Shown here: positions 33,194 through 51,100 of the stretch, piece by piece
How the letters are laid out: every line of letters starts with the position of its first letter
Numbering within the stretch: the stretch's first letter is position 1
NCBI RefSeq assembly: GCF_002019605.1
Contig: NZ_KV917368.1
Coordinates: 1,695,958 to 1,759,957 of the forward strand
Direction: 5' to 3'
Origin: Alkalihalobacterium alkalinitrilicum
Lineage (GTDB): Bacteria > Bacillota > Bacilli > Bacillales > Bacillaceae_F
Length of the DNA stretch: 64,000 nucleotides
The notes under the pieces: model-generated
Told to the model about the DNA's origin: nothing
What the model saw: only the letters and a program-made list of their open reading frames with translations
Database searches by the model: none
Position numbers and translations under genes: made by a program

Positions 33194-33201
33194 ATGTTTA
33201 T

Positions 33202-34811: not shown

Positions 34812-36014
34812 TTATGAATATTGCTTTAATTCTAATCTAGCAATATCCCTTCTATGAACTTCATCAGGACCATCCACTAATCGAAGTGTACGAGAGTTAG
34901 CCCAATGGGAAGCTAATGGGAAATCCTCACTAATGCCTCCAGCACCAAACGCTTGAATCGCTCGGTCGATTACATTTAATGCAACTTCTGGTACAGCAAC
35001 TTTAATCATCGCAATTTCTTTCCTAGCCGCTTTATTTCCTTCTTTATCCATTTTATAAGCCGCTTGTAATGTCAAAAGTCGTGCTTGATCAATTTCAATT
35101 CTTGATTTTGCAATCCACTCTTGAATAACACCTTGTTCTGCTAATTTTTTTCCAAAGGTAACACGCTCATTTACCCGCTTACACATTAATTCAAGTGCCC
35201 TTTCAGCAGCTCCAATGGCACGCATACAGTGGTGAACTCTACCAGGACCAAGTCTCCCTTGTGCAATTGCAAATCCTTTTCCTTCTCCAACTAGAATATT
35301 AGAGACAGGAACTCTCACATTTTCAAATATTATTTCCGTATGACCTGTAGGACCATGATCGTACCCAAATACGGATAACGTACGTTTAACCGTAACACCA
35401 GGTGTGTCCATCGGAACTAAGACCATTGATTGTTGTTCATGTCTAGCAGCCGTCGGATCTGTTTTTCCCATAAAGATTAGTATCTTCGTACGTTTATCTC
35501 CCCCATTCGTAATCCACCATTTTCTACCATTAATGACGTAATGGTCACCTTCTCGCTCTATTCTACTTTGGATATTGGTCGCATCTGATGACGCGACATT
35601 CGGTTCAGTCATCGTAAAGCAAGATCTAATTTCTCCATTTAATAACGGAACTAACCATTTGTCTTTTTGTTCTTGATTACCATAATGCAATAGTGTCTCC
35701 ATATTTCCCGTGTCAGGAGCGTTACAATTGAAAACTTCTGGTCCAATTAATGAGCGACCCATAATTTCACATAACGGCGCATATTCTACATTGGTCATAC
35801 CTTCCCCATATTCACTTTTTGGTAGGAAGAAATTCCATAAACCTTCTTTTTTTGCTTTGGCCTTTAATTCTTCCATAATCGGTGAAATTTCCCATCTTCC
35901 AATTTCGTTTAGTTCTTCTTCATATTTGTGTTCATTAGGAATTACATATTCCTCCATAAAAGCTTTAACTTTTGCTTGAAGTTCCTTTGTTTTTTCACTA
36001 TGTTCAAAGTACAT
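34812..36014 (-). CDS. Acyl-CoA dehydrogenase of ACAD10/11 (LvaC-like) type
   Basis: 400 residues, RBS GGAGG. Usual ACAD motifs: [46 protein letters not shown] and [17 protein letters not shown]. The place of the catalytic Glu (normally YEGTxxIxR) holds [14 protein letters not shown], the signature of ACAD10/11-like enzymes. In that group the enzyme works on 4-phosphoryl-acyl-CoA made by the neighbouring APH kinase. Last gene of thiolase-ligase-kinase-dehydrogenase. Paralog at 47520. Confidence 0.9.
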
Positions 36015-36093
36015 ATATTTCCTCCTTCTTTCTTTACAGAAAATTAAATTTTATTTTTATTATTATGATAATTATTACTAGAAACCTTTTACA

Positions 36094-37164
36094 CTAAATA
36101 TAGTTTCTGAGATTAGATACTTCATCCGCATGATGGATAAGGTTTCTAGCATTAGTATTATGATTTTTAAATCGTTCATCTTGCGTTTGCCCCATTTTCC
36201 ACCTGTAATGCATTTGTTGTAACACGACTGCTAACCGGAAATAAGCTAAAACTAGATAGAAATGGATTGAAGATACATCTTTGCCAGTTGTAGTAGCATA
36301 CAATTCAATAATCTCACGGCGGTTTAAAAATCCAGGATGATGTGTTACTGTAGGCTGAACTTTTTTAATATAATCAGGATCATCTTCTTGAACCCAGTAG
36401 CCTAAAGCAACACTTAAATCGAAAATAGGATCGGCGATTGTTGCCATCTCCCAATCTAATAATGCTTCTACTTCATTTAAATCTGGGGAGAATAACATAT
36501 TATTTATTTTGTAATCATTATGAATAATAGAAATTTCTTTAGATTTTGGTATATTTTGTATTAACCAGTTAGATAACCGATCAACAACGCCTATCTCTTC
36601 GGTTTTTGTTAGTTGATAACGTTTAATCCAACCATGAACTTGCCTTTCTGCAAATCCATCTGGTTTCCCGAAGTCTTCCAAATTCGCCTCTTTATAATCG
36701 ATGTTATGTAGTTCGACAAGTGTCTTAACAAATACGTTAGTAAGGTTATGGCATTTCTTTTCAGTAACCGAAACACTCGGTGGAAAATGACTATCAATAA
36801 CTACACCATGTTTTCTTTCCATTATATAAAACGGTACTCCCAATATTGATTCGTCTTCACTAAAAACATAAGGTTTTGGTATATGCTTAAAGTGAGGGTA
36901 TATTTTCATTAATAGATTAGCTTCACGCTTCATATCATGTGCTTTTGGCGGCAACTTACCAAAAGGGGGCCTTCTCATTACACCTTCCCATTCACCACAG
37001 CGAATAGCATAGGTTAAATTTGAAGATCCAGATGGAAACTGTTTAACTTCTAACGGTTCATTCGGTATAAATTTTTGTTGCAACAAAAATTGTCTTAAGC
37101 TTTCTTGATCAAAACCTTCTCCTGATCGAACAGCAATTAATTGCTCATCAAGTTCTTTATTCAT
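36094..37164 (-). CDS. APH-type phosphotransferase (LvaA/ACAD11 kinase-like)
   Basis: About 356 residues. Protein-kinase-like aminoglycoside phosphotransferase fold: FPSGSSNLTYAI (Gly loop), catalytic loop IIHNDYKINNML (HxDxxxxN) near 205, metal-binding LLDWEMATIADP near 225. GTG at 37176 is an alternative start; the paralog at 49107 favours 37164. Always next to an ACAD gene, in this window twice; it likely phosphorylates the 4-hydroxy group of a hydroxyacyl-CoA rather than an antibiotic. Confidence 0.88.
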   Translation of the reverse strand: MNKELDEQLIAVRSGEGFDQESLRQFLLQQKFIPNEPLEVKQFPSGSSNLTYAIRCGEWEGVMRRPPFGKLPPKAHDMKREANLLMKIYPHFKHIPKPYVFSEDESILGVPFYIMERKHGVVIDSHFPPSVSVTEKKCHNLTNVFVKTLVELHNIDYKEANLEDFGKPDGFAERQVHGWIKRYQLTKTEEIGVVDRLSNWLIQNIPKSKEISIIHNDYKINNMLFSPDLNEVEALLDWEMATIADPIFDLSVALGYWVQEDDPDYIKKVQPTVTHHPGFLNRREIIELYATTTGKDVSSIHFYLVLAYFRLAVVLQQMHYRWKMGQTQDERFKNHNTNARNLIHHADEVSNLRNYI

Positions 37165-37226
37165 TCGTTTCACCACAACCTTTCATCATTAAATGACTAA
37201 ACTCTTATTCTTATTAATAGTAATTT

Positions 37227-38738
37227 TTATGAGCTTTTTAGTTTTCTTTTCATCAATTTCCCTGTCGGTGTTTTCGGGATTTCTTTAATAAATTCTACTT
37301 CTCTGATTTGTTTGTAACTGGCCAATTTCTCTAAACAAAACTTTATAATTTCCTCTTGTGATACCTCAGCACCTTCCTTTAAAGCTATATAAGCTTTCGG
37401 AATTTCCCCGAGACGTTCGTCTGGTTGCCCGATTACAGCTGCTTCAAGCACAGCAGGATGTGTATAGAGAACATTTTCTATCTCGACTGGATACACATTA
37501 TATCCACCAACGATGATTAGATCCTTTTTACGGTCTAATAAATAAACGTAACCTTCTTCATCCAATTTACCGATATCGCCCGTATGTAACCACCCGTTCA
37601 TTATGGTCTTAGCTGTTTGTTCAGGATTATTCCAATATCCTTTCATTACGCAGTGCCCACGCACGACGATTTCGCCTGGTTCACCTGGTGCTACTACATT
37701 GTTATCGTTATCTACAATTGCAACTTCTAGGTGTGGAAGCGGGTACCCAACACTATTAAATCGACGCTCCCGTTTTAACGTGTCTACCGTAATAACAGGG
37801 GAGCTTTCTGTTTGCCCATAAGCTTGAATCGTTAATGTATGATAACGAGATTCAAACTGATTTCGAACTTCTAAAGGCATATGGCCCCCACTCGTAATAC
37901 AAATTTCTAAGGATGATAGGTCATAACGTGGCTCATCAGGCAAAGTAAGTAACATGTAGTACATCGCTGGTACACCAATAAAGAAATTGATTTTTTCTTG
38001 TTGAATCGTTGTCGCTACTGTTTCGGTACTATACTTTTCAAAAAGATAGAATTTACCACCTTTCATTAGAACCAATATGAGTCCTGCCATTAAAACAAGC
38101 AAATGAGATAATGGAGTAACGATACTTCCATAATGATGTTCATTTAGATTAATACTATCTGCATAAAACTCAGCATTTGTATTGAGATTATAATGAGAAA
38201 GTTCAACCCCTTTTGGGTCCCCCGTTGTTCCAGACGTATACAAAATGCAAGCTCCAGCATCAGGTGATACATCTTTTGACTCGTATCGAACCTCTTCATT
38301 AAAACTTTCCGTTTTTAACTCTTCAAAAATAGCAGAATTAACTTTACATTCATCTATGATAAATACTTTATGTAAGCTCGTATTACTTGTGTAATTTTCT
38401 ATTAGCGGTATTTTTTCTGCTTTTGTAAATAGCACGGTTGCTTCTGAATGATTTAGTATGTATTCAGATTCAATAGATTTAAACAAATAGTTGATGGGGA
38501 CTGAAATAGCTCCTATTTTTAACGTTGCATAAAAGGCATAAATAAATTCCATACCGTTAGGCAACCAAATCGCTACCCTATCCCCTTGTTTTACGCCATA
38601 AGAATTCAATAAGTTAGCAAACGAATCTACTTTTTGATTAAGTTGTTCATAAGTATATAAATCTTCTTGAAATTTAACAGCCGTGCGGTTTCCATTTAAT
38701 AAAGCGTGTCTTTCAAGAGACTGAGCTAAATTCATCAT
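37227..38738 (-). CDS. Long-chain-type acyl-CoA ligase (AMP-forming)
   Basis: About 503 residues, start ATG 38738 with AAAGG 6 nt upstream. A3 LYTSGTTGDPKGVELSH, A5 YGQTESSP, A7/A8 TGDIGKLDEEGYVYLLDRKKDLIIVGGYNVYP, A10 PTGKLMKRK. Makes the CoA ester that enters the kinase/dehydrogenase step. Second gene of the thiolase operon, spacing about 110 nt from thiolase and 60 nt to the kinase. Confidence 0.92.
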   Translation of the reverse strand: MMNLAQSLERHALLNGNRTAVKFQEDLYTYEQLNQKVDSFANLLNSYGVKQGDRVAIWLPNGMEFIYAFYATLKIGAISVPINYLFKSIESEYILNHSEATVLFTKAEKIPLIENYTSNTSLHKVFIIDECKVNSAIFEELKTESFNEEVRYESKDVSPDAGACILYTSGTTGDPKGVELSHYNLNTNAEFYADSINLNEHHYGSIVTPLSHLLVLMAGLILVLMKGGKFYLFEKYSTETVATTIQQEKINFFIGVPAMYYMLLTLPDEPRYDLSSLEICITSGGHMPLEVRNQFESRYHTLTIQAYGQTESSPVITVDTLKRERRFNSVGYPLPHLEVAIVDNDNNVVAPGEPGEIVVRGHCVMKGYWNNPEQTAKTIMNGWLHTGDIGKLDEEGYVYLLDRKKDLIIVGGYNVYPVEIENVLYTHPAVLEAAVIGQPDERLGEIPKAYIALKEGAEVSQEEIIKFCLEKLASYKQIREVEFIKEIPKTPTGKLMKRKLKSS

Positions 38739-38851
38739 CTTCATCCTTTCCTTTAATAAGCTAATACACTACAAAGTTAAGACTATTGCATACTTTGTTT
38801 TCCTTTCATCTCAACTTTATAAGCACTTTCATTTTTTATCCTGTTAATTTT

Positions 38852-40000
38852 TTAACGGTCTAATTTCTCAATAATTGTAACGTTAGCCATTCCGTAACCC
38901 TCACCTATTCCTAACAAACCATACCTTCCTCCTTTTCGTTCTAATTCATGGATTAAAGTTGTGAGTAATCGAGCACCGTTAGCGCTAAGTGGATGACCTA
39001 ATGCTATTGCTCCTCCATTAAGATTTAACTTATTAGGATCTGCTCCGGTTTCTTGTAACCAAATGAGAGGAACCGAAGCATAGACTTCACTGATTTCGAA
39101 AACATCAATATCATTTATTTTTAGTCCCACCTTTGCAAGAGCTTTATTTGTTGCAATAATAAGCCCTGTAAAAATGATATTTGGATCTGAGCCTACCACA
39201 GTACGGTTTACAATTCGAAACCGAGGTTTTAACCCTAGTTCTTTCGCTTTCGTATTAGACATAATTAAGATGGCGGCTGATCCGTCACTCAGGAAACTGG
39301 AGTTCCCTCCATGTATTTTTGTATTTTCATTAATTGTCGGCTTAATTTGTTTCAATTCTTTTGAGGTTATATTATTTCTTGGACCTTCATCTTTTTGAAT
39401 TATTTTTGCTTCCCCAGCAGGTAATTCAACTTTTACTGGAACGATTTCCCTTTCAAACCGTTTTTGTTTTATTGCTCTAATTGCCTTTTCATGACTTTCA
39501 ATTGCATATTCATCTAATTGCACTCGACTTAATCCCCAAATATCTGCAATTAGTTCAGCCGCTCTTTCTTGATGTCGTAACGTATGCTCTCTTGGAAGAT
39601 TGGTATTAAAACCTTCTTTATTACATTTTGTAGTGGGAGAAGTTGACGCTTCTACTCCTGCAGCGATAATAATGTCCATATCACCGCTAATAATGGCCTG
39701 AGCAGCAAAGTGGATTGCTTGCTGACTAGATCCACATTGTCTTTCTACAGTTGTACTCGGAACACTATTAGGAAAACTAGAGTTTAACAATGCCAATCGA
39801 ACAAATTCTACTGCTGGCTCACTTAACTTAGAAGGACACCCCATGATTATATCGTCAACTAATTCTGCAGGAATTGAAGTCCGCTTAATAATCTCTTTAA
39901 GAGCCACGGAAACGATTTCGTCAGGTCGCAGTTTACTAAAGTACCCATTTTTTCTAATCATTGAGGTACGTACTGATTCTACAATTACAGCTTCACGCAT
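38852..40000 (-). CDS. Thiolase-family protein with altered catalytic motifs
   Basis: 382 residues. N-terminal REAVIVESVRTSMIRKNGYF and nucleophile Cys in VERQCGSSQQAIHFAAQ (near 88) are normal, and GHPLSANGARLL keeps the GHP His. However, the NEAF motif is SEVY (FEISEVYA) and the second catalytic Cys (CxGxG) is Gly (LLGIGEGYGMA). The loop after residue 125 is shorter than in typical 390-residue thiolases. It may still cleave 3-ketoacyl-CoA slowly, or have another role. First gene of the operon; sigma-54 promoter and cre box upstream. Confidence 0.88.
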   Translation of the reverse strand: MREAVIVESVRTSMIRKNGYFSKLRPDEIVSVALKEIIKRTSIPAELVDDIIMGCPSKLSEPAVEFVRLALLNSSFPNSVPSTTVERQCGSSQQAIHFAAQAIISGDMDIIIAAGVEASTSPTTKCNKEGFNTNLPREHTLRHQERAAELIADIWGLSRVQLDEYAIESHEKAIRAIKQKRFEREIVPVKVELPAGEAKIIQKDEGPRNNITSKELKQIKPTINENTKIHGGNSSFLSDGSAAILIMSNTKAKELGLKPRFRIVNRTVVGSDPNIIFTGLIIATNKALAKVGLKINDIDVFEISEVYASVPLIWLQETGADPNKLNLNGGAIALGHPLSANGARLLTTLIHELERKGGRYGLLGIGEGYGMANVTIIEKLDR

Positions 40001-40042
40001 ACCTACCTCCCTAATATTATTTAAGGCTATTTTTACAACAAA

Positions 40043-40056
40043 GGTAAACGTTTACA
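40043..40056. promoter_or_regulatory. cre box between thiolase start and sigma-54 promoter
   Basis: GGTAAACGTTTACA, 13 of 14 matches to TGWAARCGYTWNCW on either strand; 16-30 nt downstream of the predicted transcript start. Confidence 0.65.
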
Positions 40057-40083
40057 TTTTAATACTGTATTCAATTTTTTAAT

Positions 40084-40100
40084 TGCAATTGCTGTGCCAA
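40084..40100 (-). promoter_or_regulatory. Sigma-54 promoter of the thiolase-ligase-kinase-dehydrogenase operon
   Basis: Minus strand TTGGCACAGCAATTGCA, perfect -24 and -12 elements with GG-N10-GC. Confidence 0.9.
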
Positions 40101-40208
40101 TTTTAAAACAGTTTTTGTTAAAACAAGTAATGAGAGGTTAACAACGGCAAAAAATATTTTTCGGTTTATTAAAAATTTATTTGAAATTCAGAATAGTTTG
40201 TGTTTTAA

Positions 40209-40258
40209 TGTAAACAGTACTGTACAAGTTTACATTTTATTGTAAACAACTGTTTACA
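40209..40258. promoter_or_regulatory. Tandem enhancer-type palindromes for the CBS-PAS activator
   Basis: TGTAAAC-N12-GTTTACA (40209-40234) and TGTAAACA-AC-TGTTTACA (40241-40258), centres 28 bp apart, about 110-160 nt upstream of the thiolase -24 box and just before the activator gene. Typical place for an upstream activating sequence. Confidence 0.7.
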
Positions 40259-40310
40259 TGTTAACAGTTACATTCAGTAATAGTAGATCTTTTTATAAAG
40301 GAGAGAAAAT

Positions 40311-42431
40311 ATGAAAGCTCAAGATATCATGACCACCTCATTTCAATGCTGTCATGTTCATACTTTATTGATTGATGCTTTTAAGATTTTTTCAAAGTTT
40401 AACTCGAATATCATACCTATTGTAAATGATAAGAACGTATTGGCTGGGATTATTACTAAAAACCGAATCATATGTGCTGTATCCAAAGGGTATCCCTTAA
40501 CAAATACTATAGCTCCTTTAATCCATGATCATCCCATTTACATCTTTCCAGAAACAGACATATTAAAAACGCGAGAAAAGCTTTTACACCATATGATTGG
40601 TCATGCACCAGTCGTTAATGAAAAAAAGGAACCTATCGGAATTATTTCAACTTCTCAAATTTTATATGGGTACGATAAGGCTTTAAATATGATGCAATCA
40701 CAGCTTCAACTGCTGTTTAATAGTTTACAGTTTGGTTTGTTATCTGTAGATTGTCATATGAACATTAACGCTATTAACCCATTAGCAAAAGAAATGCTTC
40801 AGTTAAGTATGGAAGAAGATTCTCACACATTATTAAATAAAAACAAAGTAATAAAAGAAATGATTGAATACGTCCTTGTAAATAATGAAAAACCATCGAA
40901 ACAGAAATTAAATGTAAATGGTTACACCTTTGTCGTAGACTGTTACCCTTTATTTGAAAATAAAAAATTAACAGGTGTAATGACCATCATTGATGACCTT
41001 ACAAATATTGAAGAAATAATAAAAGAATTACAAATGACAAAAGAGTGGGAGCAAAAACTACGAACCTTAGTTGAATCTGCCTATGATGCGATTGTTCTGG
41101 TTGATGATACGGGCTTAATTACGATGGCAAACCAAGGATTTTGCAACCTTTTCTCAGCGTCTGAAAAAGAAATCATTGGACAGTCCATTTTGAGGACCTT
41201 TCCAGATTTAGGTATTAAGGATGTTATTGATATGAAAATCCCTATTAGTGGAATTTCGAAAATGATCAAATCAAAACAATGCTTAATTACAAATTTGCCC
41301 ATTAAAATTAATGGAGAAATCGTCGGCGTGGTCTCGAAAATAACGTTTCGTGGTTTAAAACAACTTCGAGAAGCATTGAATAAAGCGAACAACCTCGAAA
41401 ACTCGTTTATACATAATGTTCAAAAAATGGATTTAGGAACTAGATATTCGATAGCAGATATAGTCGGAACTTCAAACCTAACCAAAAAAGCGAAGATAGA
41501 GGCACTTGCCGCATCTCAAAGTAAATCGACTGTATTATTAATCGGTGAAAGCGGTACTGGCAAAGAACTATTTGCTCATGGCATCCATACGGCGTCTTCA
41601 CTTCCAGGTTCTTTTATTAAAGTCAATTGTGCGGCTATTCCAGCAGATTTACTAGAATCAGAGTTTTTTGGATATGCTGAAGGTGCATTTACAGGTGCGA
41701 AAAAAGGTGGAAAAAAAGGTAAGTTTGAACTCGCACAAAATGGTACTTTATTTTTAGACGAAATCGGTGATATGCCATTAAACCTACAATCTAAATTATT
41801 GAGGGTATTGCAAGAAAAAGAATTTGAACCAGTCGGAAGTAACCAAACAATAAAATTAAATATAAGAATTATTGCAGCAACAAATAAAAACCTTGAAGAA
41901 ATGATCAAACATGGGGAATTCCGTGAAGATTTATATTATCGGCTTAATATTTTGAGGATTAATATTCCTTCATTAAGAAAGCGTAAAGAAGATATCCCTG
42001 ATATTACGAACACGATTATCGATCGATTACATCAGTCGGGATTTTATATTAAAGGTATTACACCTTCAGCCTTAGATGTAATGATGAAATACAATTGGCC
42101 AGGGAACATAAGGGAATTACAAAATGCACTCGAGCGTGCAGCTAACTTAACGGTCAATGGTTACATCGATATACTAGAATTACCTGACTATATATTAGAG
42201 CACCAAGAGAAAACTGATGATGATTATATGATAAATACGCAAAAGAGTGAGGATACTGAAATCGCTACCCTCCCCAATGTTTATAAAAAGAATGCAAACC
42301 TAATGGAAAAAAAATTAATTATTGAAGCACTAAAAAAAACGAAAGGAAATAAATCAAAAGCCAGTAAGAAATTAGGAATCAGCCGTACTTGGCTTTATTC
42401 TAGGATGAAAAAATATAATATTGATGTTTAG
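40311..42431 (+). CDS. Sigma-54 activator with N-terminal CBS pair and PAS sensors (copy 1)
   Basis: 706 residues, RBS AAAGGAGAG. Residues 1-118 form a CBS pair (MKAQDIMTTSFQ, IGHAPVVNEKKEPIGIISTSQILYG). Then PAS-like regions (LLSVDCHMNINAINPLAKEM near 145; YDAIVLVDDTGLITMANQGFC near 260). AAA+ domain with GESGTGKE near 413, GAFTGA near 460, TLFLDEIGDMP, RALERAAN region, and Fis-type helix-turn-helix KASKKLGISRTWLYSRMKKY. Divergent from the thiolase operon. CBS pairs often bind adenosyl compounds, so AMP/CoA-type sensing is possible. Paralog at 55540. Confidence 0.93.
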   Translation: MKAQDIMTTSFQCCHVHTLLIDAFKIFSKFNSNIIPIVNDKNVLAGIITKNRIICAVSKGYPLTNTIAPLIHDHPIYIFPETDILKTREKLLHHMIGHAPVVNEKKEPIGIISTSQILYGYDKALNMMQSQLQLLFNSLQFGLLSVDCHMNINAINPLAKEMLQLSMEEDSHTLLNKNKVIKEMIEYVLVNNEKPSKQKLNVNGYTFVVDCYPLFENKKLTGVMTIIDDLTNIEEIIKELQMTKEWEQKLRTLVESAYDAIVLVDDTGLITMANQGFCNLFSASEKEIIGQSILRTFPDLGIKDVIDMKIPISGISKMIKSKQCLITNLPIKINGEIVGVVSKITFRGLKQLREALNKANNLENSFIHNVQKMDLGTRYSIADIVGTSNLTKKAKIEALAASQSKSTVLLIGESGTGKELFAHGIHTASSLPGSFIKVNCAAIPADLLESEFFGYAEGAFTGAKKGGKKGKFELAQNGTLFLDEIGDMPLNLQSKLLRVLQEKEFEPVGSNQTIKLNIRIIAATNKNLEEMIKHGEFREDLYYRLNILRINIPSLRKRKEDIPDITNTIIDRLHQSGFYIKGITPSALDVMMKYNWPGNIRELQNALERAANLTVNGYIDILELPDYILEHQEKTDDDYMINTQKSEDTEIATLPNVYKKNANLMEKKLIIEALKKTKGNKSKASKKLGISRTWLYSRMKKYNIDV

Positions 42432-42490
42432 ATATTTTCTCTAGTATAAATTTTAGTATAGTAAAAACATACATTTACCCTTAAAGTAAA

Positions 42491-42526
42491 AAAATCTTAG
42501 CGACAAACTATATTCGCTAAGATTTT
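42491..42526. terminator. Bidirectional terminator between activator 1 and nitronate monooxygenase
   Basis: AAAATCTTAGCGA / TCGCTAAGATTTT, 13-bp stem, T-rich on both strands; serves convergent genes. Confidence 0.92.
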
Positions 42527-42548
42527 TTTGATTCCTTAATATAGTTGA

Positions 42549-43514
42549 TTATTTACATTCTGAGAAATTTCTAAAACTTGTAGTTAATAATTGACTTGCC
42601 TCATTTGACATTTGTTTAACAATGGTTTCTGCACTTTCTAATTCATCGATTAAGCTTGCTACTTGACCACAGCTCATAAAACCACTCTGAATATCTCCAT
42701 CAAACATCGCAAGTTTATTATAGGTTCCACGGACCATAGGTAAAATATGCTCTACTGTTGGATTCTTTTTCTCCATTTCCTGCACTTTATTTGCGTATTC
42801 ATTTTTTAATACACGCAAAGGTCCCTTTAACATCCGTGTCATGATAGTAGTAGAGTCGTTATCAGCCTCTAAAATTGCTGCTTTAAAGTGATCATGAGCC
42901 TCACATTCTTTTGTAGCTACAAACCTCGTCCCCAATTGAACGCCATCAGCACCCAAGATCATCGCTGCAGCCATACTTCTACCATCCACAATTCCTCCTG
43001 CTGCAACTACTGGGATCGAAACTACTCGTTTCACTTGTGGAACAAGAGTAAACGTAGTTAATTCAGAAGGCCCATTACTCCCGCCTGCTTCATAGCCTTC
43101 GCAAACTATAATATCTGCACCAAGCGCTTCCGCTTTCGCTGAATGAAAGGCGGTTGAAGTTAACACTAATACCTTCAATCCATGCTCTTTAATAAACGGG
43201 ATTAAATTCTTTGGGTTTCCTGCACCTAAACTAACAGCTGTAATCAAATCCTTATGCTTCTTAATAATTTCTAAATATGGGGTGAAATCTGTATGCTGAC
43301 TAATAGGAATGTTTACTCCAAATGGCTTAGTTGTTGCTTCTCTCGCTAAAAGAATTTCATTTTCAAAATTTTCAGGAGATCGACCTGCTGAACCAACTTG
43401 CCCAAAACCACCACCATTTGAAACCGCAGCCGCAAGTAACCCGTTTCCAACATAAGCGAGTCCACCTTCAATAATCGGCACTTCTATTTGTAACATTTCA
43501 CAAATTCGATTCAC
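42549..43514 (-). CDS. Nitronate monooxygenase / FabK-like flavoprotein (copy 1)
   Basis: 321 residues, GTG start with AAGGTGG site. FMN TIM barrel: PIIEGGLAYVGNGLLAAAVSNGGGFGQVGSAG at start, CEGYEAGGSNGP, VVAAGGIVDGRSMAAAMILGADGVQLGTRFVATKE. These are the nitropropane dioxygenase family motifs; members oxidise alkyl nitronates or reduce enoyl-acyl carriers. Directly follows the iron-ADH gene (36 nt). Paralog at 60828 and a remnant at 59227. Confidence 0.88.
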   Translation of the reverse strand: MNRICEMLQIEVPIIEGGLAYVGNGLLAAAVSNGGGFGQVGSAGRSPENFENEILLAREATTKPFGVNIPISQHTDFTPYLEIIKKHKDLITAVSLGAGNPKNLIPFIKEHGLKVLVLTSTAFHSAKAEALGADIIVCEGYEAGGSNGPSELTTFTLVPQVKRVVSIPVVAAGGIVDGRSMAAAMILGADGVQLGTRFVATKECEAHDHFKAAILEADNDSTTIMTRMLKGPLRVLKNEYANKVQEMEKKNPTVEHILPMVRGTYNKLAMFDGDIQSGFMSCGQVASLIDELESAETIVKQMSNEASQLLTTSFRNFSECK

Positions 43515-43550
43515 GTATCGTTACCACCTTTTCATTTTTTGGGGAATTCT

Positions 43551-44732
43551 TTACCAAGCAACTTCTAATAAAGCTGTTATTTCTTTTTGTAAATCTTGTG
43601 TATCTATTACTAAAGCATTTTTTTCTCCTTGGATATCCATCAAAATATCTTTTACGACAGTAGGGATACTTTCTTTTGATACATTAAAATCTCTTAAACG
43701 ATGTGGGATTTCTAATTCTTCGATCAAACCTTTGATAAGGGAAGGTGCGATACTAGCTTTGTCTTCTATACTTCGATTAATCTCCGTTTTTCCTAGTACT
43801 TCAGGAATTTGGCTCTGCTCCTCAAATGTACGTGGGAGGAGAAATTTCATGACATGTGGAAGCATAATCGCCGATGTCATTCCATGTGGGATGTTGTAAT
43901 TCGCCCCTAATTGATGGCCAATACTATGAGATAAACCTAGCTTAATGTTGACGACAGAAAATAACGACAACCAAGCACCGACTTGACATTCAAGACGATA
44001 ATCTAAATTCGTAGGATTGTTTTTACTTAGTGGTAGATGATAATAAAGTTTCTTTAATGCTTGTAAAGCTAGGCCTGTATTCACAGGGTTAGGATTGGGT
44101 GAGTAAAGAGTTTCTACCGCATGATCGACAGCACGTATTCCAGTTGAAATCCAGAGCCAATCAGGGGTTTCTACCGTAAAAATAGGATCTAAAAAAACGA
44201 GTTTAGGTGTCATATTTAGATGAGAGAATTTGTATTTGGCATGATTAACACTATTCGTAACTCCAGCTATACTTGTATATTCACCTGCTGATAACGTCGT
44301 TGGAATTGCTATATGGGGAATATAAGTTGTCATTTTGATTTCCTTTTCTCCAACATTAACAGAATAAGGAAACAACTCCTCTTCTGATTCAATTCCTTCA
44401 GATAATACAAAAGAAAGAATTTTAGCTGAATCAATAGGGCTTCCGCCTCCACAACTTATAATAATGTCTGGATTAAACTCCCTGATTTCCTTTACATCTT
44501 CCATTAAAATATTTCCTGGAACATGTTGTTTCGAACATGTCTCAAAAGTTTTTAAATGGTTGTCATGTAAAGTAACTACCATATTTTTATATGCTTTCGT
44601 TGATAACATACTATTTGTCGTCACAATTAACACTTTTGTTCCATTTAACTTTTGTATTTCATCAATGAGTTGATCGGTAACAACATGAACTCCGTAATGA
44701 ATACGTTCGACAGGTAAGTATTGATAAATCAT
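43551..44732 (-). CDS. Iron-containing (type III) alcohol dehydrogenase (copy 1)
   Basis: 393 residues from ATG 44732 (GAAAGGGG site); the open frame upstream has none. NAD site CGGGSPIDSAKI near 95; metal ligands in RAVDHAVETLYSP, GLSHSIGHQLGANYNIPHGMTSAIMLPHV. Oxidises an alcohol or hydroxyacid. Cotranscribed with the nitronate monooxygenase. The GGGSxxD signature fits alcohol or 4-hydroxyacid dehydrogenases better than maleylacetate reductases. Paralog at 57889. Confidence 0.9.
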   Translation of the reverse strand: MIYQYLPVERIHYGVHVVTDQLIDEIQKLNGTKVLIVTTNSMLSTKAYKNMVVTLHDNHLKTFETCSKQHVPGNILMEDVKEIREFNPDIIISCGGGSPIDSAKILSFVLSEGIESEEELFPYSVNVGEKEIKMTTYIPHIAIPTTLSAGEYTSIAGVTNSVNHAKYKFSHLNMTPKLVFLDPIFTVETPDWLWISTGIRAVDHAVETLYSPNPNPVNTGLALQALKKLYYHLPLSKNNPTNLDYRLECQVGAWLSLFSVVNIKLGLSHSIGHQLGANYNIPHGMTSAIMLPHVMKFLLPRTFEEQSQIPEVLGKTEINRSIEDKASIAPSLIKGLIEELEIPHRLRDFNVSKESIPTVVKDILMDIQGEKNALVIDTQDLQKEITALLEVAW

Positions 44733-44801
44733 TTCAAAACCCCTTTCTACGCTTTCTTTATTTTTTTTCACTGTATTAAAGCAAATTGTTAATAATGTTG
44801 A

Positions 44802-44816
44802 TGTTGAAATTCAACA
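44802..44816. promoter_or_regulatory. Palindrome upstream of the iron-ADH/nitronate monooxygenase operon
   Basis: TGTTGAA-A-TTCAACA, perfect 7-bp arms, about 70 nt before the start codon. Likely operator of an unidentified regulator. Confidence 0.45.
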
Positions 44817-44841
44817 CTATGCATTAACAGATCATTATACA

Positions 44842-45046
44842 GTAAACCTCCATCAGTGAGGGGTTTCCTCTTCCCCACTGATGGTTAGTTGAGGCCTACA
44901 CGATGTGGGTCACATAGACGTGGCCACAGGACGTGCGCATTTATTCTGTGTTCATTTAGTTGTTACTAGCAGTTTATCCCCTACTTACCCTTCATTGATT
45001 CCTTGGAGTCTTGAGTTGAGGGTATAACTACCAGTTGATGCGGAAA
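44842..45046. repeat. Structured intergenic repeat, copy 2
   Basis: CATCAGTGAGGGG ... CCCCACTGATG hairpin, then the CACGATGTGGGTCAC section, ACTAGCAGTTTATCCC and, at the end, ACCAGTTGATGCGGAAAAAA. More diverged at its end than copies 3 and 4. Tandem with copy 3, 120 nt apart, same orientation. Confidence 0.85.
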
Positions 45047-45165
45047 AAATTTTTATACGGATGTTTTTAATTTTATTATGTATTTTTAAAAAATTCAATT
45101 AATTTTTATCGAAGCAACTAAACAATGCTAGAAACAAAAATAGCAACCATTGGATCACCAGAAAA

Positions 45166-45377
45166 AGTGAACCTTCCATCAGTGAGGGGTTTTCCTCTTC
45201 CCCCACAGATGGTTAGTTGAGGCCACACGATGTGGGTCACACAGACGTTGCCACAGGAAGTGGCGCATTTATTCTGTGTTTATTAAGTTTTTACTGGCAG
45301 TTTATCCCCCACTTATCCTTCATTGTTTCCTCGTAGTCAGAAAGTGGAGGTACTACTGCCAGTTGTTGCGGGATAAA
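45166..45377. repeat. Structured intergenic repeat, copy 3 (best preserved)
   Basis: About 212 nt. Hairpin 1 CCATCAGTGAGGGG with CCCCCACAGATGG. Hairpin 2 CACAGA-[GCCAC ... GTGGC]-TCTGTG. Hairpin 3 ACTGGCAGT ... ACTGCCAGT with CCCCCACTT/AAGTGGAGG inside. The final GGGATAAA is complementary to TTTATCCC in hairpin 3, allowing a pseudoknot. Confidence 0.88.
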
Positions 45378-45391
45378 CTAAAGATTAAAGG

Positions 45392-45423
45392 AGGCTGACA
45401 GGTTTATACCTTCATGTCAGCCT
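45392..45423 (-). terminator. Terminator of the TRAP solute-binding gene
   Basis: AGGCTGACA / TGTCAGCCT 9-bp stem with 14-nt loop, minus tail CCTTTAATC, just past the stop codon. Confidence 0.8.
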
Positions 45424-45435
45424 TTTAAATGTTTT

Positions 45436-46527
45436 TTAATTTCCTAACTCTTCAAGCGCACGATTATACATTTCTTCCCCGATTAGATTAATATTATTGT
45501 CAATCGCTGGTACGACTGCTTCTCTAAATTGTTCAATTTGTTCTGGAGTTAACTCGTGCAGTTCGACACCCTCTGCTAACATATTTTCAAGAGCTTTCGT
45601 TTCTTGTTCTACAACTAATTCTCTAGCAAATTGAATCATTTCATCAGCAGCTTCCAAAACAACGTCTTGCAAGTCAGCTGGTAAACTTTCAAAGAAGTCA
45701 TTATTAATGAATAAAATATATGGGAATAACACGTGTTGAGTTAATGTGAGATATTCACTAACTTCATAGAATTGAGCATCATACATTAAAGGAACCGTTG
45801 TCGTTAATCCATCAATTGTTCCTTGCTGTAACGAAGTGTATACTTCCGCAAATGTAATCGGTGTTGGATTTCCTCCCATTACTGAGATCGTATCCATCAA
45901 TACAGAAGCTTGTGGTGTTCTTATATTAAGACCATTTAAATCACCTGGTTCCGTAATCGGATGACTACTATTAAGGATTGATAATGAACCGATATCGTAA
46001 TAGCCTAAAATTTTTGCGCCTGTTGATTCTTCCAGTTCAATTCTCATTTCTTCTCCAACAGGTCCCTCCATAAACTCAAATAGTTGATCACGATCTTCAA
46101 ATAAGAATGGAAAATCATAAATGTTGTATCCGTCTATTCCAGCGATTTGAGCAGGAATAAATGGTCCTTGTCCGATGACTTGAGCTGTACCTTCTCTTAA
46201 TAGTTGGAAGTTCTCTTCATCAGATGAAGACAATGTTCCACCTAAGTAAATTTCAACATCAATTCTTCCATCACTTTTTTCTTCTACTAATTCTTTGAAT
46301 TTCTGAAAACCAATCGCAACAAAGTTGTCAGCATTTACAACAGTAGGTAATTTAATAGAATACGTTTGCCCATCGTCTGTTGCTGGTGCCTCATCAGTTG
46401 TTTCTGTTGAGGTATCCCCTTCTTCCTGTTGACTAGACCCGGATTCTGTTGAACCACCACATGCTGTTAAAACAAGTAAAAACGTGACTAGTGACATGAG
46501 CCCAAACCAAGTGAATGTCTTTTTCAT
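45436..46527 (-). CDS. TRAP transporter solute-binding lipoprotein, DctP family
   Basis: 363 residues. Signal peptide with lipobox VLTAC near residue 22, acidic linker, then a DctP fold (VEIYLGGTLSSSDEENFQLLREGTAQV, LNGLNIRTPQASVLMDTISVMGGNPTPITFAEVYTSLQQGTIDG with the ligand-binding Arg). TRAP systems need DctQ and DctM membrane subunits, which are not in this window. DctP proteins bind organic or sugar acids. Downstream of an SDR-ACAD pair; cre box in the promoter region. Confidence 0.93.
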   Translation of the reverse strand: MKKTFTWFGLMSLVTFLLVLTACGGSTESGSSQQEEGDTSTETTDEAPATDDGQTYSIKLPTVVNADNFVAIGFQKFKELVEEKSDGRIDVEIYLGGTLSSSDEENFQLLREGTAQVIGQGPFIPAQIAGIDGYNIYDFPFLFEDRDQLFEFMEGPVGEEMRIELEESTGAKILGYYDIGSLSILNSSHPITEPGDLNGLNIRTPQASVLMDTISVMGGNPTPITFAEVYTSLQQGTIDGLTTTVPLMYDAQFYEVSEYLTLTQHVLFPYILFINNDFFESLPADLQDVVLEAADEMIQFARELVVEQETKALENMLAEGVELHELTPEQIEQFREAVVPAIDNNINLIGEEMYNRALEELGN

Positions 46528-46575
46528 TTCTTTTCCTCTCCTATATAAACTATTTAATATATAACACTCTTTGTA

Positions 46576-46589
46576 AGTAAACGCTTACA
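46576..46589. promoter_or_regulatory. cre box upstream of the TRAP gene
   Basis: AGTAAACGCTTACA, 13 of 14 matches; embedded in the larger palindrome TGTAAG-TAAACG-CTTACA. Confidence 0.65.
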
Positions 46590-46733
46590 TTTTATATAGT
46601 AGGATAATGTTATAATTATTGATCATATATTGTTCGTGGAAATGGCCCGATTATGTTCTCGAATGGAACTACAATCAAGCCTTTCCACATCATTTTATAG
46701 TTAACAAAGAGGATATTACTCAACTCAGTATCT

Positions 46734-47486
46734 TTACTCAGACAGTGTTCCGCCATCAATAAAGAAGGTTTGACCTGTTACATAATTGGCTGCATCAGAT
46801 GCAAGGTATAGAGCGATTGAAGATATATCTTTTGGCTCACCAAGTCTTCTCAGAGGGATAGCCTTGATAGCACCTTCTAACCACTTTTTATTTTCCATTT
46901 CCGACTTGTTTATTTCTGTACTAATTAATCCTGGTGCAATGGAATTTACTAATATGCCATTTCTAGCCCATTCTGCTGCAAGAGATTTCGTCAAATGAAT
47001 GACAGCAGCCTTACTTGCGGTATAAGGTGCGATTCGTTTATATGGCTTTACACCACCAACAGAAGAAATATTAATGATTTTACCTTGATTTTGTTTAATC
47101 ATTATCTTGGCAGCTTCTTGTGAGCAAAAGAATAACCCTTTAATATTCACATCATAAATCATATCCCAGTCTTCTTCTGTAACTTCTGTTGCAGGCTTTG
47201 TTACATTCGCCCCAGCATTATTAATTAAAACATCTATTCTACCAAATTGCTGTAATGTCTTCTCAAACAACTGACGAATATCATTCAGATTACCAACATC
47301 ACAAGCAATTGGCAAAGCATTAACTCCATTCTCTCTAATTTCATGAGCCAAATCCTGACACACCTCTTGATTTCGACTCGAAATCACTACATTGGCACCT
47401 TTAGAAGCAAAATCGCGCACCATTTGTGCTCCTAAGCCACGGCTACCACCTGTTACAACGATAACTTTTTCCTTAAAGTTCTCCAT
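46734..47486 (-). CDS. Short-chain dehydrogenase/reductase (LvaD/FabG-like)
   Basis: 250 residues. TGGSRGLGAQ cofactor loop, INNAGAN, catalytic INISSVGG and YTASKAAV, end VTGQTFFIDGGT. Close paralog of 21753-22511. Sits 33 nt downstream of an ACAD gene with its own AAAGGGGTG site, in the order kinase-ACAD-SDR, as in lva-type clusters where the SDR reduces a 4-keto to a 4-hydroxy acyl-CoA. Confidence 0.92.
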   Translation of the reverse strand: MENFKEKVIVVTGGSRGLGAQMVRDFASKGANVVISSRNQEVCQDLAHEIRENGVNALPIACDVGNLNDIRQLFEKTLQQFGRIDVLINNAGANVTKPATEVTEEDWDMIYDVNIKGLFFCSQEAAKIMIKQNQGKIINISSVGGVKPYKRIAPYTASKAAVIHLTKSLAAEWARNGILVNSIAPGLISTEINKSEMENKKWLEGAIKAIPLRRLGEPKDISSIALYLASDAANYVTGQTFFIDGGTLSE

Positions 47487-47519
47487 GCAGTTTCACCCCT
47501 TTCCCTAGCAAGTTCCTAA

Positions 47520-48719
47520 TTAAACGAGAACATCGTTGTTACGATTTTGATATTCTTTTAAATAACGTTTAGCTACAACCATACGGTGAACTTCGTCTGG
47601 ACCATCATAAATGTGCGCAGCTCTCGCTTCACGGTAAAATCCTTCTAACGGAGTATCTTTCGAATATCCTAAGGAACCATGAACTTGAATTGCTCGACTT
47701 ATGACATCATTTAAGATCTTCGCTCCGTAAAACTTAATTAATGCTATTTCTTTTCTCGCATCCCCACCTTGGTCCATCATCCAAGCAGCGTTAAGAGTCA
47801 TTAACCGACAAGCGGAAATCTCTGCAGCTGAGTCAGCAATAAAATTTTGAATTGTTTGGAATTCAGCTAACGGCTTACCTCTTGTTTTTCTCTTTAGGGC
47901 ATAATCGAGCATTAAGTCAAAACTACGATTCATTACCCCTAACCAACGCATCGCATGTGTGATACGACCAGGTCCTAATCGCATTTGTGCGAGTTTAAAT
48001 CCTTCTCCTTCTTTTCCTAGGATGTTTTCTTTTGGAATTCTACAATTGTTAAATTTAATTTCCCAGTGCCCGCCTTCACTAAAGTCACCCATCGTTCCAA
48101 TATCTCGAATCATTTCAAAACCAGGTGTTCCTTCATCCACTAAAAACATTGTTGCACGTTCGTGTGGAGGTGCATCTGGGTTTGTCACAGCCATCACAAT
48201 TGTAAACGATGCCAACCCAGCATTACTAATAAACCATTTTTCCCCATTAATTACCCATTCATCACCGTCTCTTACAGCAGTCGTTTGGATTCCTGTTGGA
48301 TCTGCTCCCGATACATCTCGTTCTGTCATCGCAAAACACGAACGAATTTCATCAGCAATGACTGGTTTTAAGTATTTTTCAATTTGTTCAGGCGTTCCTG
48401 CTTTTAATAAAATTTCAGTATTCCCTGTATCAGGAGCCGCTGTACCAAATACACGTGGACCAAGGACACTACTCCCTAAAACTTCATTTAATAGACCTAA
48501 AAACACATTTCCTAACCCTAAACCACCAATACTTTTTGGTAGATGAGCTGCCCACAAATTTTGGTCTTTTACTTTTTGTTGTAATGGTTTAAGAATTTCG
48601 TTTGGTAGACCCACGCCAGGAATAATATCTTTTTCAGCAGGATAAACATCCTCAATCATGATTTTTTTAGCTCTTGCTAACAATTCTTCCTGTTCAGGTG
48701 TTGGACTAAAATTGTACAT
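47520..48719 (-). CDS. Acyl-CoA dehydrogenase of ACAD10/11 (LvaC-like) type (copy 2)
   Basis: 399 residues, [96 protein letters not shown]. The DGPDEVH motif again replaces the standard Glu-containing one. Lies downstream of the second APH kinase with a structured repeat in between, upstream of the SDR. Same reaction proposed as copy 1. Confidence 0.9.
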   Translation of the reverse strand: MYNFSPTPEQEELLARAKKIMIEDVYPAEKDIIPGVGLPNEILKPLQQKVKDQNLWAAHLPKSIGGLGLGNVFLGLLNEVLGSSVLGPRVFGTAAPDTGNTEILLKAGTPEQIEKYLKPVIADEIRSCFAMTERDVSGADPTGIQTTAVRDGDEWVINGEKWFISNAGLASFTIVMAVTNPDAPPHERATMFLVDEGTPGFEMIRDIGTMGDFSEGGHWEIKFNNCRIPKENILGKEGEGFKLAQMRLGPGRITHAMRWLGVMNRSFDLMLDYALKRKTRGKPLAEFQTIQNFIADSAAEISACRLMTLNAAWMMDQGGDARKEIALIKFYGAKILNDVISRAIQVHGSLGYSKDTPLEGFYREARAAHIYDGPDEVHRMVVAKRYLKEYQNRNNDVLV

Positions 48720-48752
48720 ATTATCTCTCCTTTTTAATATTAAAATTTGATA

Positions 48753-48962
48753 TTGAAACTTCCATCAGTGAGGGGGTTTCCTTTTCCCCACTGATTGTTA
48801 GTTGAGGCTCACACGATGTAGTTACACAGACGTTGCCACAGGACGTGGTGCATTTAGTCTGTGTTCATTTAGTTGTTACTGGCAGTTTATACCTCACTTA
48901 TCCTTCTTTGATTCCTGGTAGTCTTGATGTGGGGCTATTACTGCCAGTTGTTGCGGGATAAA
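48753..48962. repeat. Structured intergenic repeat, copy 4
   Basis: Same three-hairpin layout: CCATCAGTGAGGG / CCCCACTGATTG, CACAGACGTTGCCACAGG, ACTGGCAGTTTATACC, then ACTGCCAGTTGTTGCGGGATAAA. Placed between kinase and ACAD genes of the second module. Confidence 0.88.
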
Positions 48963-49106
48963 TTCAAAAGTGAACTGAAACACTCAAAATTAATTAGTAG
49001 AATAATCGGATGTATTTTGTAACAGCTTATTCATCTAAAGAATTTGACCATTCTTGTCTATCACCCTCTTTTATGTAATATTTCAATTAAATAGATTAGA
49101 TGAAAG

Positions 49107-50171
49107 CTAGATCGTTTCTTTTTGACTAACTTCAAAAGCATGTATCATTAAATTTTTAACTCTGATATCAAACTGAGAAAAACGTTCATCAAACGTCTGT
49201 CCCATCTTCCATCGATAGAAAATTTGCTGAAGTACAACAGCCAATTTAAAATAAGTAAAAGCTAAATAATAATGCATTGAAGGGATATCTCTACCGGTTT
49301 TTAATGAATATCTATGAATAAAATCTCTTCGTTTTATGAAACCTGCCATAACGGTTACTGTAGGCAAACTATCTTTAAGAATATCCGGATCATCTTCTTC
49401 CATCCAATAGCCAAGTGCACCAGCTAAATCAAACAGTGGATCTGCGATGGTAGCAATTTCCCAATCAAGTACAGCTTCGATTTGTGTCAAGTCACGTGAC
49501 AGTAACATGTTGTTTAATTTATAATCATTGTGAATGATTGTGGGCTCAGGAGATTTAGGAATTTGACGAACAAACCAGTTTGCTAGTTGATCAAAGTAGG
49601 GAACCTCATCGGTTTTAGAACGTTCATACCTTTTAATCCACCCATTCACTTGTCGTTCTAAAAATCCATCAGGATGACCAAAATTAGCTAAATCTACCTT
49701 CTTGTAATCAACTTGGTGTAGTTGTGCTAGTGCATCCACAACAGCATGTGAAATTCCTTCACATAAATCGGTTGTCACTTTATATCCATCTGGAAATTGA
49801 TCATTTAATACGATCCCTTTTTTTCTTTCCATAATATAAAAGGGAACACCTAAGATTGATTTATCTTCGCAATAAACGTAAGGCTTTGGAACGAGTTGAT
49901 AAGCTGGATATAATCGTTTTAGAAATTCAGACTCTCTTTTCATATCATGAGCTTTCGGTGGGAGAGGTCCTGATGGTGGACGCCGCATCACTGCCTCCCA
50001 ATCCCCACAACGAATTAAATAGGTTAAATTTGACACTCCAGTTGGAAATTGCTTCACTTCAAAAGAACCTTCCGGAAAACCTTCAACCGTTGCCGTTAAA
50101 TACTGTTTAAGCGCAACTTGATCAAAGTCTTCACCTTTCCTGATTTCTATCGTTTCAACATATTGCTCCAT
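49107..50171 (-). CDS. APH-type phosphotransferase (LvaA/ACAD11 kinase-like, copy 2)
   Basis: About 354 residues from ATG 50171 (AAGGTG site 8 nt upstream; a GTG at 50180 overlaps it). FPTGVSNLTYLI, catalytic loop IIHNDYKLNNMLL, VLDWEIATIADPLFDL, ALGYWMEEDDPD. Strongly similar to 36094-37164. Start of the second kinase-ACAD-SDR group. Proposed role: ATP-dependent phosphorylation of 4-hydroxyacyl-CoA. Confidence 0.88.
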   Translation of the reverse strand: MEQYVETIEIRKGEDFDQVALKQYLTATVEGFPEGSFEVKQFPTGVSNLTYLIRCGDWEAVMRRPPSGPLPPKAHDMKRESEFLKRLYPAYQLVPKPYVYCEDKSILGVPFYIMERKKGIVLNDQFPDGYKVTTDLCEGISHAVVDALAQLHQVDYKKVDLANFGHPDGFLERQVNGWIKRYERSKTDEVPYFDQLANWFVRQIPKSPEPTIIHNDYKLNNMLLSRDLTQIEAVLDWEIATIADPLFDLAGALGYWMEEDDPDILKDSLPTVTVMAGFIKRRDFIHRYSLKTGRDIPSMHYYLAFTYFKLAVVLQQIFYRWKMGQTFDERFSQFDIRVKNLMIHAFEVSQKETI

Positions 50172-50409
50172 TACGTTCACACCTTATTAATAAGTTTATA
50201 CTACTTACACCTGAAATTTAAACAAACATTTGTTTTATTTCTGAGCGATCGACAAGTTTCAATTTGATAAAAGCTATGCCTAAACTATTATGCATCACTA
50301 TATAACATAATCTACTCATTTCATAAATATTACGTATTTCATAACTTTAAGTCTTACCTATCCATATCAAAATGAATCAGTCTGCCGTTATTAAATAGTG
50401 ACTGGAATT

Positions 50410-51100
50410 TTAAATAACGCCTACATTGCCTAACTTTTCAATTTTCTCATTAGAATATCCTAGTTCCTTCAAAATTTCATCATTATGTTCTCCTAACTTA
50501 GGAGCCTTTGCGTATATTTCTCCAGGTGTATCAGATAATTTAATAGGTATCCCTATATGTTTAACGACTTCACCACTAGGACCGATCATTTCTTCAATCA
50601 TTTTTCGTTCATTAATTTGAGGATTAGTTAGCAATTCTTCAAAGTTTAAAACTGGCGCTACACAAGTGTCATAGTCTTTAAAGATCTCTACCCATTCATT
50701 TAAAGGTTTTTGTTGAATGATTGAACTGATTTCAACTTGCAATTCATCTTGTGTAGCTTGGGGTGCATCAAGTAAATCGATGAAGTCTTCTCTTCCAATT
50801 GCTTTACAGAACGCTTCCCAAAACTTCAGTTCTAAAGCACCGACTGATAAAAAGCGACGATCGGCAGTCTCATACACTTGATAACAAGCCAACCCACCTG
50901 ATAACGTTAATTCCCCGCGAACTGGCAACTTTTGATTAACTAAATAGTTTGGTAAGATTGTTTGTAACCAGGAAACAACACCGTCTAACATTGAGATATC
51001 GACAAACTGACCTTTTCCACTTTTACCTCTATTTATAATTGCTATTAAAATACCAATCGCTGCCATCAGTGATCCGCCACCAATTTCTAAAAACAAGTTG
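50410..51100 (-). pseudogene. CoA-transferase family III (CaiB/BaiF), N-terminally truncated
   Basis: The frame keeps about 230 residues of the C-terminal part: IGGGSLMAAIGILIAII, GKGQFVDISMLDGVVSWL, FLSVGALELKFWEAFCKAIGREDF, CVAPVLNFEELLTNPQI, KLGEHNDEILKELGYS. About 160 N-terminal residues with the catalytic Asp are missing; the sequence upstream of 51100 is unrelated. The enzyme would move CoA between acids. Part of a decayed module with the two pseudogenes beyond. Confidence 0.85.

Follow-up and report, generated by a model that had tools for sequence, protein, structure and literature searches.

Does a genome with two kinase-dehydrogenase gene pairs in one neighbourhood hold two copies of a single catabolic module, or two different systems? 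The question is raised by a 64-kb window (the whole stretch of DNA analysed here, C1:1695958-1759957) of the 5.5-Mb genome of Alkalihalobacterium alkalinitrilicum, in which genes for an APH-type kinase and an acyl-CoA dehydrogenase (ACAD) stand side by side twice, as pairs A and B. The original prediction, made from the sequence of this window, saw in them two copies of a levulinate-like 4-hydroxyacid module under sigma-54 control, comparable to the lva route of Pseudomonas putida and to mammalian ACAD10/ACAD11. Both pairs are found as intact open reading frames (ORFs) at the predicted places with the expected Pfam domains, and ORFs and Pfam likewise place ligase and thiolase genes at pair A and a short-chain dehydrogenase/reductase (SDR) gene at pair B. 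The four central genes are:

34812-36014, minus strand: ACAD A, ACAD10/11-type acyl-CoA dehydrogenase of 400 amino acids with HHCMR signature and catalytic Asp
36094-37176, minus strand: kinase A, APH-family, ACAD11-kinase-type, 360 amino acids (PF01636, 133 bits)
47520-48719, minus strand: ACAD B, ACAD10/11-type, second subclade, 399 amino acids with HAMR signature and catalytic Asp
49107-50180, minus strand: kinase B, APH-family, ACAD11-kinase-type, 357 amino acids (PF01636, 146 bits)

We consider it probable that the two pairs are bacterial forms of ACAD10/11 divided over separate genes, pair A serving a sigma-54-controlled acid-utilisation operon and pair B belonging to a TetR-type regulon together with a monooxygenase.

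Both dehydrogenases carry the ACAD11 residues and group with ACAD11

In Rashan 2025 (PMC12440821), replacement of R626, H634 or R637 in mouse ACAD11 is the most disruptive, with accumulation of the phospho-intermediate, and a mutant of the catalytic Asp D753 is also used. The equivalents of all four residues, along with the general R631, are kept in ACAD A, ACAD B and four further ACADs of the genome. A search of the genome at E ≤ 1e-20 returned 25 ACADs in total, these six and 19 others; R626, H634 and R637 are missing from all 19, R631 is present in each and the D753 equivalent in three. ACAD A scores 461 bits to human ACAD11 (2wbi) and is 54% identical to mouse ACAD11, and ACAD B scores 270 bits to the mouse protein at 40% identity. 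The signature itself varies, HCMR becoming HAMR in ACAD B and HSMR in a third subclade.

Phylogeny with ACAD11, a check proposed along with the original prediction, places both ACADs with ACAD11 against the conventional enzymes. The tree comprises 43 rows (one short row, L033, was left out, and 16 relatives were chosen by hand from 74), in which 25 signature rows including human and mouse ACAD11 form one clade against 18 conventional ACADs with support of 100/100. After masking of the 34 columns around the diagnostic residues the support is 100/99. Within the clade ACAD A falls into the subclade of human and mouse ACAD11 and ACAD B into a separate one. M. abscessus 4hr3 also carries HAMR and groups within the ACAD11 subclade. 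One further locus of the survey, L077, is titled Pseudomonas sp. ISL-84; its kinase and ACAD branch with Cytobacillus, and the entry is probably mislabelled or contaminated.

The kinases match the kinase domain of mouse ACAD11 with 162 bits and 32% identity (kinase A) and 177 bits and 34% identity (kinase B). Equivalents of the catalytic Asp D220, of N225 and of the CoA-contacting R176 are kept in all six ACAD11-type kinases of the genome, and R176 is missing from the two other APH proteins of the genome that were compared. Position 86, where the paper has an Arg beside the αC Glu, is a Phe when the printed chain is numbered through; all six kinases keep an Arg-Glu pair two residues before it.

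Because the diagnostic residues are kept, the ACADs fall into the ACAD11 clade and the kinases are of the ACAD11 type, 4-phospho-acyl-CoA chemistry is likely for both pairs. In this chemistry, already known from ACAD10/11 and lva, the kinase would phosphorylate a 4-hydroxyacyl-CoA at its 4-hydroxyl, after which the ACAD, a flavoprotein, would expel the phosphate to give a 2-enoyl-CoA for β-oxidation. The predicted likeness to ACAD10/ACAD11 thus holds, as judged by residues and tree, for both pairs: the kinase is of the same APH type, and the ACAD has the same active-site residues and lies in the same clade. Unlike in mammalian ACAD11, kinase and ACAD are separate genes here, and two bacterial ACAD subclades (those of ACAD B and of ACAD 1988) lie outside the ACAD11 subclade.

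Pair A lies in a sigma-54 operon

Pair A closes an operon in the order thiolase, ligase, kinase, ACAD, which is followed by a liv-type ABC transporter and preceded by a divergent CBS-PAS sigma-54 activator:

37227-38744, minus strand: operon A acyl-CoA ligase, AMP-binding (PF00501, 311 bits)
38852-40000, minus strand: operon A thiolase (PF00108/PF02803)
40084-40099, minus strand: sigma-54 -24/-12 promoter of operon A, TGGCACAGCAATTGCA, 0 mismatches
40311-42431, plus strand: sigma-54 activator with CBS-CBS-PAS-AAA-Fis helix-turn-helix architecture (Pfam), divergent to operon A
29805-34497, minus strand: LivFGMHK branched-chain-amino-acid-type ABC transporter adjoining ACAD A, five genes, family recognised by eye

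The -24/-12 site lies 84 bp upstream of the thiolase start and has a mismatch-free counterpart in A. elongatum, where the activator (74% identical, at the same place) and the transporter (83-96%) also have counterparts. Across the window 14 sites with at most one mismatch are found versus 3.3 expected. In contrast, no -24/-12 site with intact GG and GC and at most two mismatches was found 20-350 bp upstream of the pair B genes of the window or of A. elongatum (G002), in a scan that takes the called starts as given and overlooked the site of pair A in A. elongatum; the gaps before kinase B and the CoA-transferase were also scanned separately. The best candidates in genome G433 have 3-4 mismatches. 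A sigma-54-like match at 51169 was rejected because its essential GG is broken. The claim of sigma-54 control thus stands for pair A, and for pair B no site supports it.

Pair A would accordingly be read as an acid-utilisation operon of ligase, kinase, ACAD and thiolase, with the liv-type transporter probably acting as the importer that feeds it. Transport by liv or TRAP systems had been predicted; both a liv-type transporter and, by Pfam, a TRAP solute-binding protein DctP are present, but the DctP gene stands alone.

The window contains three sigma-54 activators (16344-18119, 40311-42431 and 55540-57684), two assigned by Pfam and the third by 62% identity to the second. Mismatch-free -24/-12 sites also precede a cupin gene (16218) and a LivK-like gene (27534), and the window can be described as a large sigma-54 acid-catabolism island.

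Relatives of pair B stand beside monooxygenase clusters

The surroundings of pair B, and one synthetase gene further off that resembles a gene of the clusters described below, comprise:

42549-43514, minus strand: nitronate monooxygenase/FabK-like protein (PF03060), with an 82% counterpart in A. elongatum
43551-44771, minus strand: iron-type alcohol dehydrogenase (PF00465)
45436-46527, minus strand: TRAP solute-binding protein DctP (PF03480, 256 bits)
46734-47486, minus strand: module B SDR (PF13561)
50220-50235, no strand assigned: palindrome AAACAAACATTTGTTT, putative TetR-family operator of kinase B (shared-site search)
50410-51165, minus strand: family III CoA-transferase, truncated to its C-terminal half (profile positions 167-366 of 366)
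24033-25658, minus strand: acyl-CoA synthetase (PF00501), 68% identical to the ligase of the monooxygenase cluster at locus L052

Gene order from kinase B to livF is the same in the window and in A. elongatum except for the iron-type alcohol dehydrogenase of the window. In A. elongatum it reads CoA-transferase (an intact counterpart of 413 amino acids), kinase B, ACAD B, SDR, DctP, nitronate monooxygenase, activator, thiolase, ligase, kinase A, ACAD A and liv genes, and ACAD B and kinase B are 96% and 87% identical between the two species. Beyond the CoA-transferase A. elongatum carries genes for a flavin mononucleotide (FMN) reductase, a TetR protein, a luciferase-like monooxygenase (PF00296), an Abhydrolase_3 esterase and a SnoaL-like protein. 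The corresponding set of the A. alkalinitrilicum genome lies outside the window at C1:1823444-1828686, 77-83 kb from kinase B; its monooxygenase is intact and 95% identical to that of A. elongatum.

Similar sets stand beside relatives of kinase B in BA299 (G003), Neobacillus, Bacillus EB600, Lentibacillus, Psychrobacillus, Oceanobacillus and the genomes G433 and G719, with genes for a luciferase-like flavin monooxygenase, a flavin reductase, an esterase and an alcohol dehydrogenase. The recurrent partner of pair B thus belongs to the same Pfam family (PF00296) as the two-component luciferase-like flavin monooxygenases and, like them, comes with an FMN reductase gene. In a sample of ten genomes chosen for having the cluster (eight via the kinase, two via the monooxygenase, A. 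alkalinitrilicum included), monooxygenase, flavin or FMN reductase and ACAD11-type kinase are present without exception, and eight of the ten also show a signature ACAD; riboflavin-synthesis genes of RibB types occur in five (L043, L048, G433, G719 and A. alkalinitrilicum). The neighbours of pair B recur as well. The iron-type alcohol dehydrogenase is 64%, 71% and 74% identical to those of the monooxygenase clusters L047, L052 and L043, the SDR 73-74% to those of the L048, G433 and G719 clusters, and DctP 68-70% to its counterpart in the G433 cluster, which appears there as two overlapping pieces. The esterase of the monooxygenase cluster is of the LipP1 family, and for the two monooxygenases scanned no NCBIfam model reached its cut-off.

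Searching from the side of the monooxygenase (397 genomes of the order, E ≤ 1e-70) gave ten matches in six genomes; in all six, an ACAD11-type kinase gene lies no more than 10 kb from one of the matches. A signature ACAD lies around the monooxygenase in four of them (G002, G433, G719 and G650), and none is present in the fetched stretches of A. alkalinitrilicum and G003. A class-wide search of 398 genomes at E ≤ 1e-90 returned the A. alkalinitrilicum copy only.

In BA299 a phenylacetone-monooxygenase-like type I enzyme is encoded beside a LipP1-family esterase, about 7.9 kb from the second luciferase-like gene of that genome; A. alkalinitrilicum has four relatives of this enzyme, three of them free of internal stops and one split into two pieces. 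An analogous cluster, judged by annotation, is found on three Rhodococcus plasmids (L169, L170 and L173), with at least two luciferase-like enzymes, flavin reductase, RibBA, an NTF2-family protein, hydrolase, SDR, ligase, phosphotransferase and ACAD. All three plasmids share one gene order for the luciferase-like monooxygenases, flavin reductase, RibBA, a GAF-domain protein, phosphotransferase and ACAD. The kinase of L173 shares only about 29% identity with kinase B, so this association may have arisen separately.

A shared palindrome may link kinase B to the monooxygenase cluster

Kinase B is preceded by a 16-bp palindrome with the pattern AAACAAMYRKTTGTTT, a putative TetR-type operator. The pattern was derived from the sites before kinase B in the window and in A. 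elongatum and from the TetR gene site; a site of L048 was also known when it was drawn. Exact matches in the whole genome occur at two places, one preceding kinase B and the other, at a distance of 78.6 kb, preceding the TetR gene of the monooxygenase cluster, a result given by construction, since both sites helped to define the pattern. In two clusters outside those that defined it, at up to two mismatches and with expectations from shuffles, L043 has four sites (0.35 expected), before kinase, TetR, ACAD and monooxygenase, and L128 has seven (0.40 expected). Five sites each are present in G433 and G719, five in the second cluster of G002 and four in that of G003, where simple shuffles of each stretch give 0 to 0.2. 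Eleven of these 19 sites are at most 130 bp away from, or slightly inside, the start of a monooxygenase, TetR, ligase, riboflavin, CoA-transferase or DctP gene; the other eight are further away or without such a gene. The palindrome is absent from L047, L051 and L052, where the TetR protein is only 31-32% identical, and the four other kinase loci of the A. alkalinitrilicum genome (L034-L037) have a single match in all.

We infer that the TetR regulon of the monooxygenase cluster includes kinase B, so that the two kinase-ACAD pairs would not be duplicates under one control. The view of the pairs as duplicate copies is also at odds with the ACADs, which are 45% identical and belong to different subclades, and with the association of pair B with palindromic operators and monooxygenase clusters.

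Six kinases and six dehydrogenases rather than two copies

The count of two proved too low as well, the genome holding six ACAD11-type kinases and six signature ACADs. No other of the 299 genomes of the order searched has as many as six kinases (E ≤ 1e-90, scoring up to six candidates in each genome), the next being BA299 with five, and the count of six is unchanged when all 13 candidates of the genome are scored. ACAD11-type kinases occur in 138 of the 299 genomes, 125 of which have just one. In a scan of genome contigs for the kinase, in which 80 loci were kept of 322 confirmed stretches, a signature ACAD lies in the same locus (flanks of up to 9 kb) in 65. Thus, the kinase-ACAD pair as such is ordinary in Bacillaceae.

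Discussion

Our reading of pair B is that it works in a second regulon with a TetR-type palindromic operator, which in this genome and its relatives would include the luciferase-like flavin monooxygenase, the FMN reductase, the SnoaL-like protein and the esterase, and that the monooxygenase pathway would supply the 4-hydroxyacyl-CoA used by the pair. The combination of LipP1-family esterase and monooxygenase suggests a route of Baeyer-Villiger-type oxygenation of a ring or chain, hydrolysis of the lactone or ester, activation with CoA and β-oxidation down to 4-hydroxyacyl-CoA. As a tentative extension, for which we claim only a modest chance, pair B could be the exit of an undescribed catabolic pathway in several Bacillaceae genera, paralleled on the Rhodococcus plasmids. 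A luciferase-like two-component monooxygenase with its own FMN supply would carry out Baeyer-Villiger-type oxygenation of a cyclic or branched ketone, the esterase would open the lactone, and the resulting secondary-hydroxy acid would be shortened to a 4-hydroxyacyl-CoA that only an ACAD10/11-type kinase and ACAD could clear. Among open-licence papers none was found that links such kinases or ACADs to a luciferase-like or Baeyer-Villiger monooxygenase. Another candidate source of 4-hydroxy acids, oleate hydratase, was rejected, PF06100 having no match in the genome.

Several observations weigh against the overall explanation of the two pairs. On the side of the gene clusters, a kinase lies within 10 kb of only six of the ten monooxygenase matches and at 11-23 kb from the remaining four, and the kinase nearest to the A. 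alkalinitrilicum monooxygenase, at 9.6 kb, is another paralogue and not kinase B. Three of the six genomes belong to the genus of the window (A. alkalinitrilicum included), and the kinase scan had already turned up the Lentibacillus genome G650, which leaves only G433 and G719 as new. In the stretches fetched for BA299 (L128) and Oceanobacillus (L052) no signature ACAD was seen. On the side of the palindrome, besides the built-in nature of the exact matches, the whole genome has 12 places at one mismatch versus 9 for a reversed-pattern control; kinase B, the truncated CoA-transferase, the TetR gene and the monooxygenase account for four of the 12, and the others resemble background. No match stands directly before the kinases of G433, G719 and BA299. 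The ACAD tree has hand-chosen signature rows and an outgroup made up of 18 paralogues of one genome, and a first quick tree mixed ACAD B with conventional ACADs, mis-picked rows being part of its outgroup, three of them on branches of length 10. Finally, because the CoA-transferase beside kinase B is truncated, DctP comes without DctQM (membrane partners were not seen in the window) and the riboflavin gene of the displaced monooxygenase cluster is 5'-truncated, pathway B may be partly eroded in this genome.

These last three defects, together with transposase-like genes nearby (recognised by eye) and the distance of about 79 kb to the monooxygenase cluster, would fit a stranded remnant, that is a monooxygenase pathway split by insertion elements whose pair B is functionless or serves ordinary acids. 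We regard this as unlikely, as kinase B, ACAD B and the SDR are all intact, their conservation in A. elongatum is high for kinase and ACAD, the palindrome before kinase B is perfect, and the monooxygenase is intact and closely similar to that of A. elongatum.

A duplicated levulinate pathway, in which the ligase would make levulinyl-CoA, the SDR reduce it and kinase and ACAD finish the conversion, appears quite improbable to us. In its favour, kinase, ACAD, ligase, SDR and sigma-54 activator overlap with the lva parts as given in PMC6692424 and PMC9399607, and Rashan 2025 and Paquay 2024 (PMC11342911) relate ACAD11 to LvaA/LvaC. The likeness found here is one of parts list, linked through ACAD11 rather than by LvaA/LvaC sequences: kinase, ACAD and ligase with a sigma-54 activator at pair A. 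Compared with the P. putida operon, operon A lacks an SDR, module B having one, the transporter is liv-type rather than the acetate-symporter-like LvaG, and pair B, which clusters with monooxygenase genes in relatives, has no sigma-54 site that we could find. Nor was an lvaB-sized (12-kDa) gene recognised at either pair, where no search with the LvaB sequence was made; the gap between kinase A and ACAD A is about 80 bp, and only ORFs of 30-42 amino acids lie between kinase B and ACAD B. According to PMC6692424 the P. citronellolis cluster is also without lvaB. The predicted match to the lva parts list is thus a partial one. A module outside the window (L036, C1:2352170-2361648) fits that list better than either pair, comprising a short-chain fatty acid transporter, SDR, thiolase, ligase, sigma-54 activator, ACAD and kinase; the ligase and the ACAD are each preceded by a mismatch-free sigma-54 site, two in all. 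If the strain grows on levulinate, this would be the first place to look.

That the ACADs act on some other phosphorylated or charged acyl-CoA, for example with the phosphate at another carbon, is very doubtful: the assignment to 4-hydroxy acids is drawn from sequence, the signature varies between the subclades and ACAD B is distant from mouse ACAD11, but the three residues tested in the mouse enzyme and the Asp are kept in six of six ACADs, and HAMR also occurs within the ACAD11 subclade in M. abscessus 4hr3.

The reading of pair B as part of a monooxygenase regulon would connect the recently resolved chemistry of human ACAD10/11 with a bacterial regulon that has an oxygenase upstream, and would thereby offer a testable natural source of 4-hydroxyacyl-CoA other than levulinate. 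It also draws attention to the second ACAD subclade, of HAMR type in Bacillaceae, for which no assay was found in the excerpts of the literature searched. With six kinases and six ACADs, the genome is a place to study specialisation for chain length or substrate.

Further observations in the window

Short ORFs at 51886-52398 look by eye like pieces of an acyl-CoA dehydrogenase and adjoin a transposase-like region (52984-54315). Nitronate monooxygenase/FabK-like genes recur near ACAD11-type kinases, at 42549-43514 and 60828-61862 of the window and at C1:1982599-1983615 and C1:1818184-1819185, the last two being called by similarity or by eye. The Rfam Bacillaceae-1 RNA (RF01690) is the core of a repeat of about 210 nt, three copies of which lie within 44842-45389 and 48754-48974 of the window; kinase B and ACAD B flank one of the three. 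The whole genome has at least 40 copies (the best 40 of 193 candidates were scored), and 37 of the 40 are on the plus strand between about 1.3 and 3.2 Mb and on the minus strand elsewhere, with limits set afterwards.

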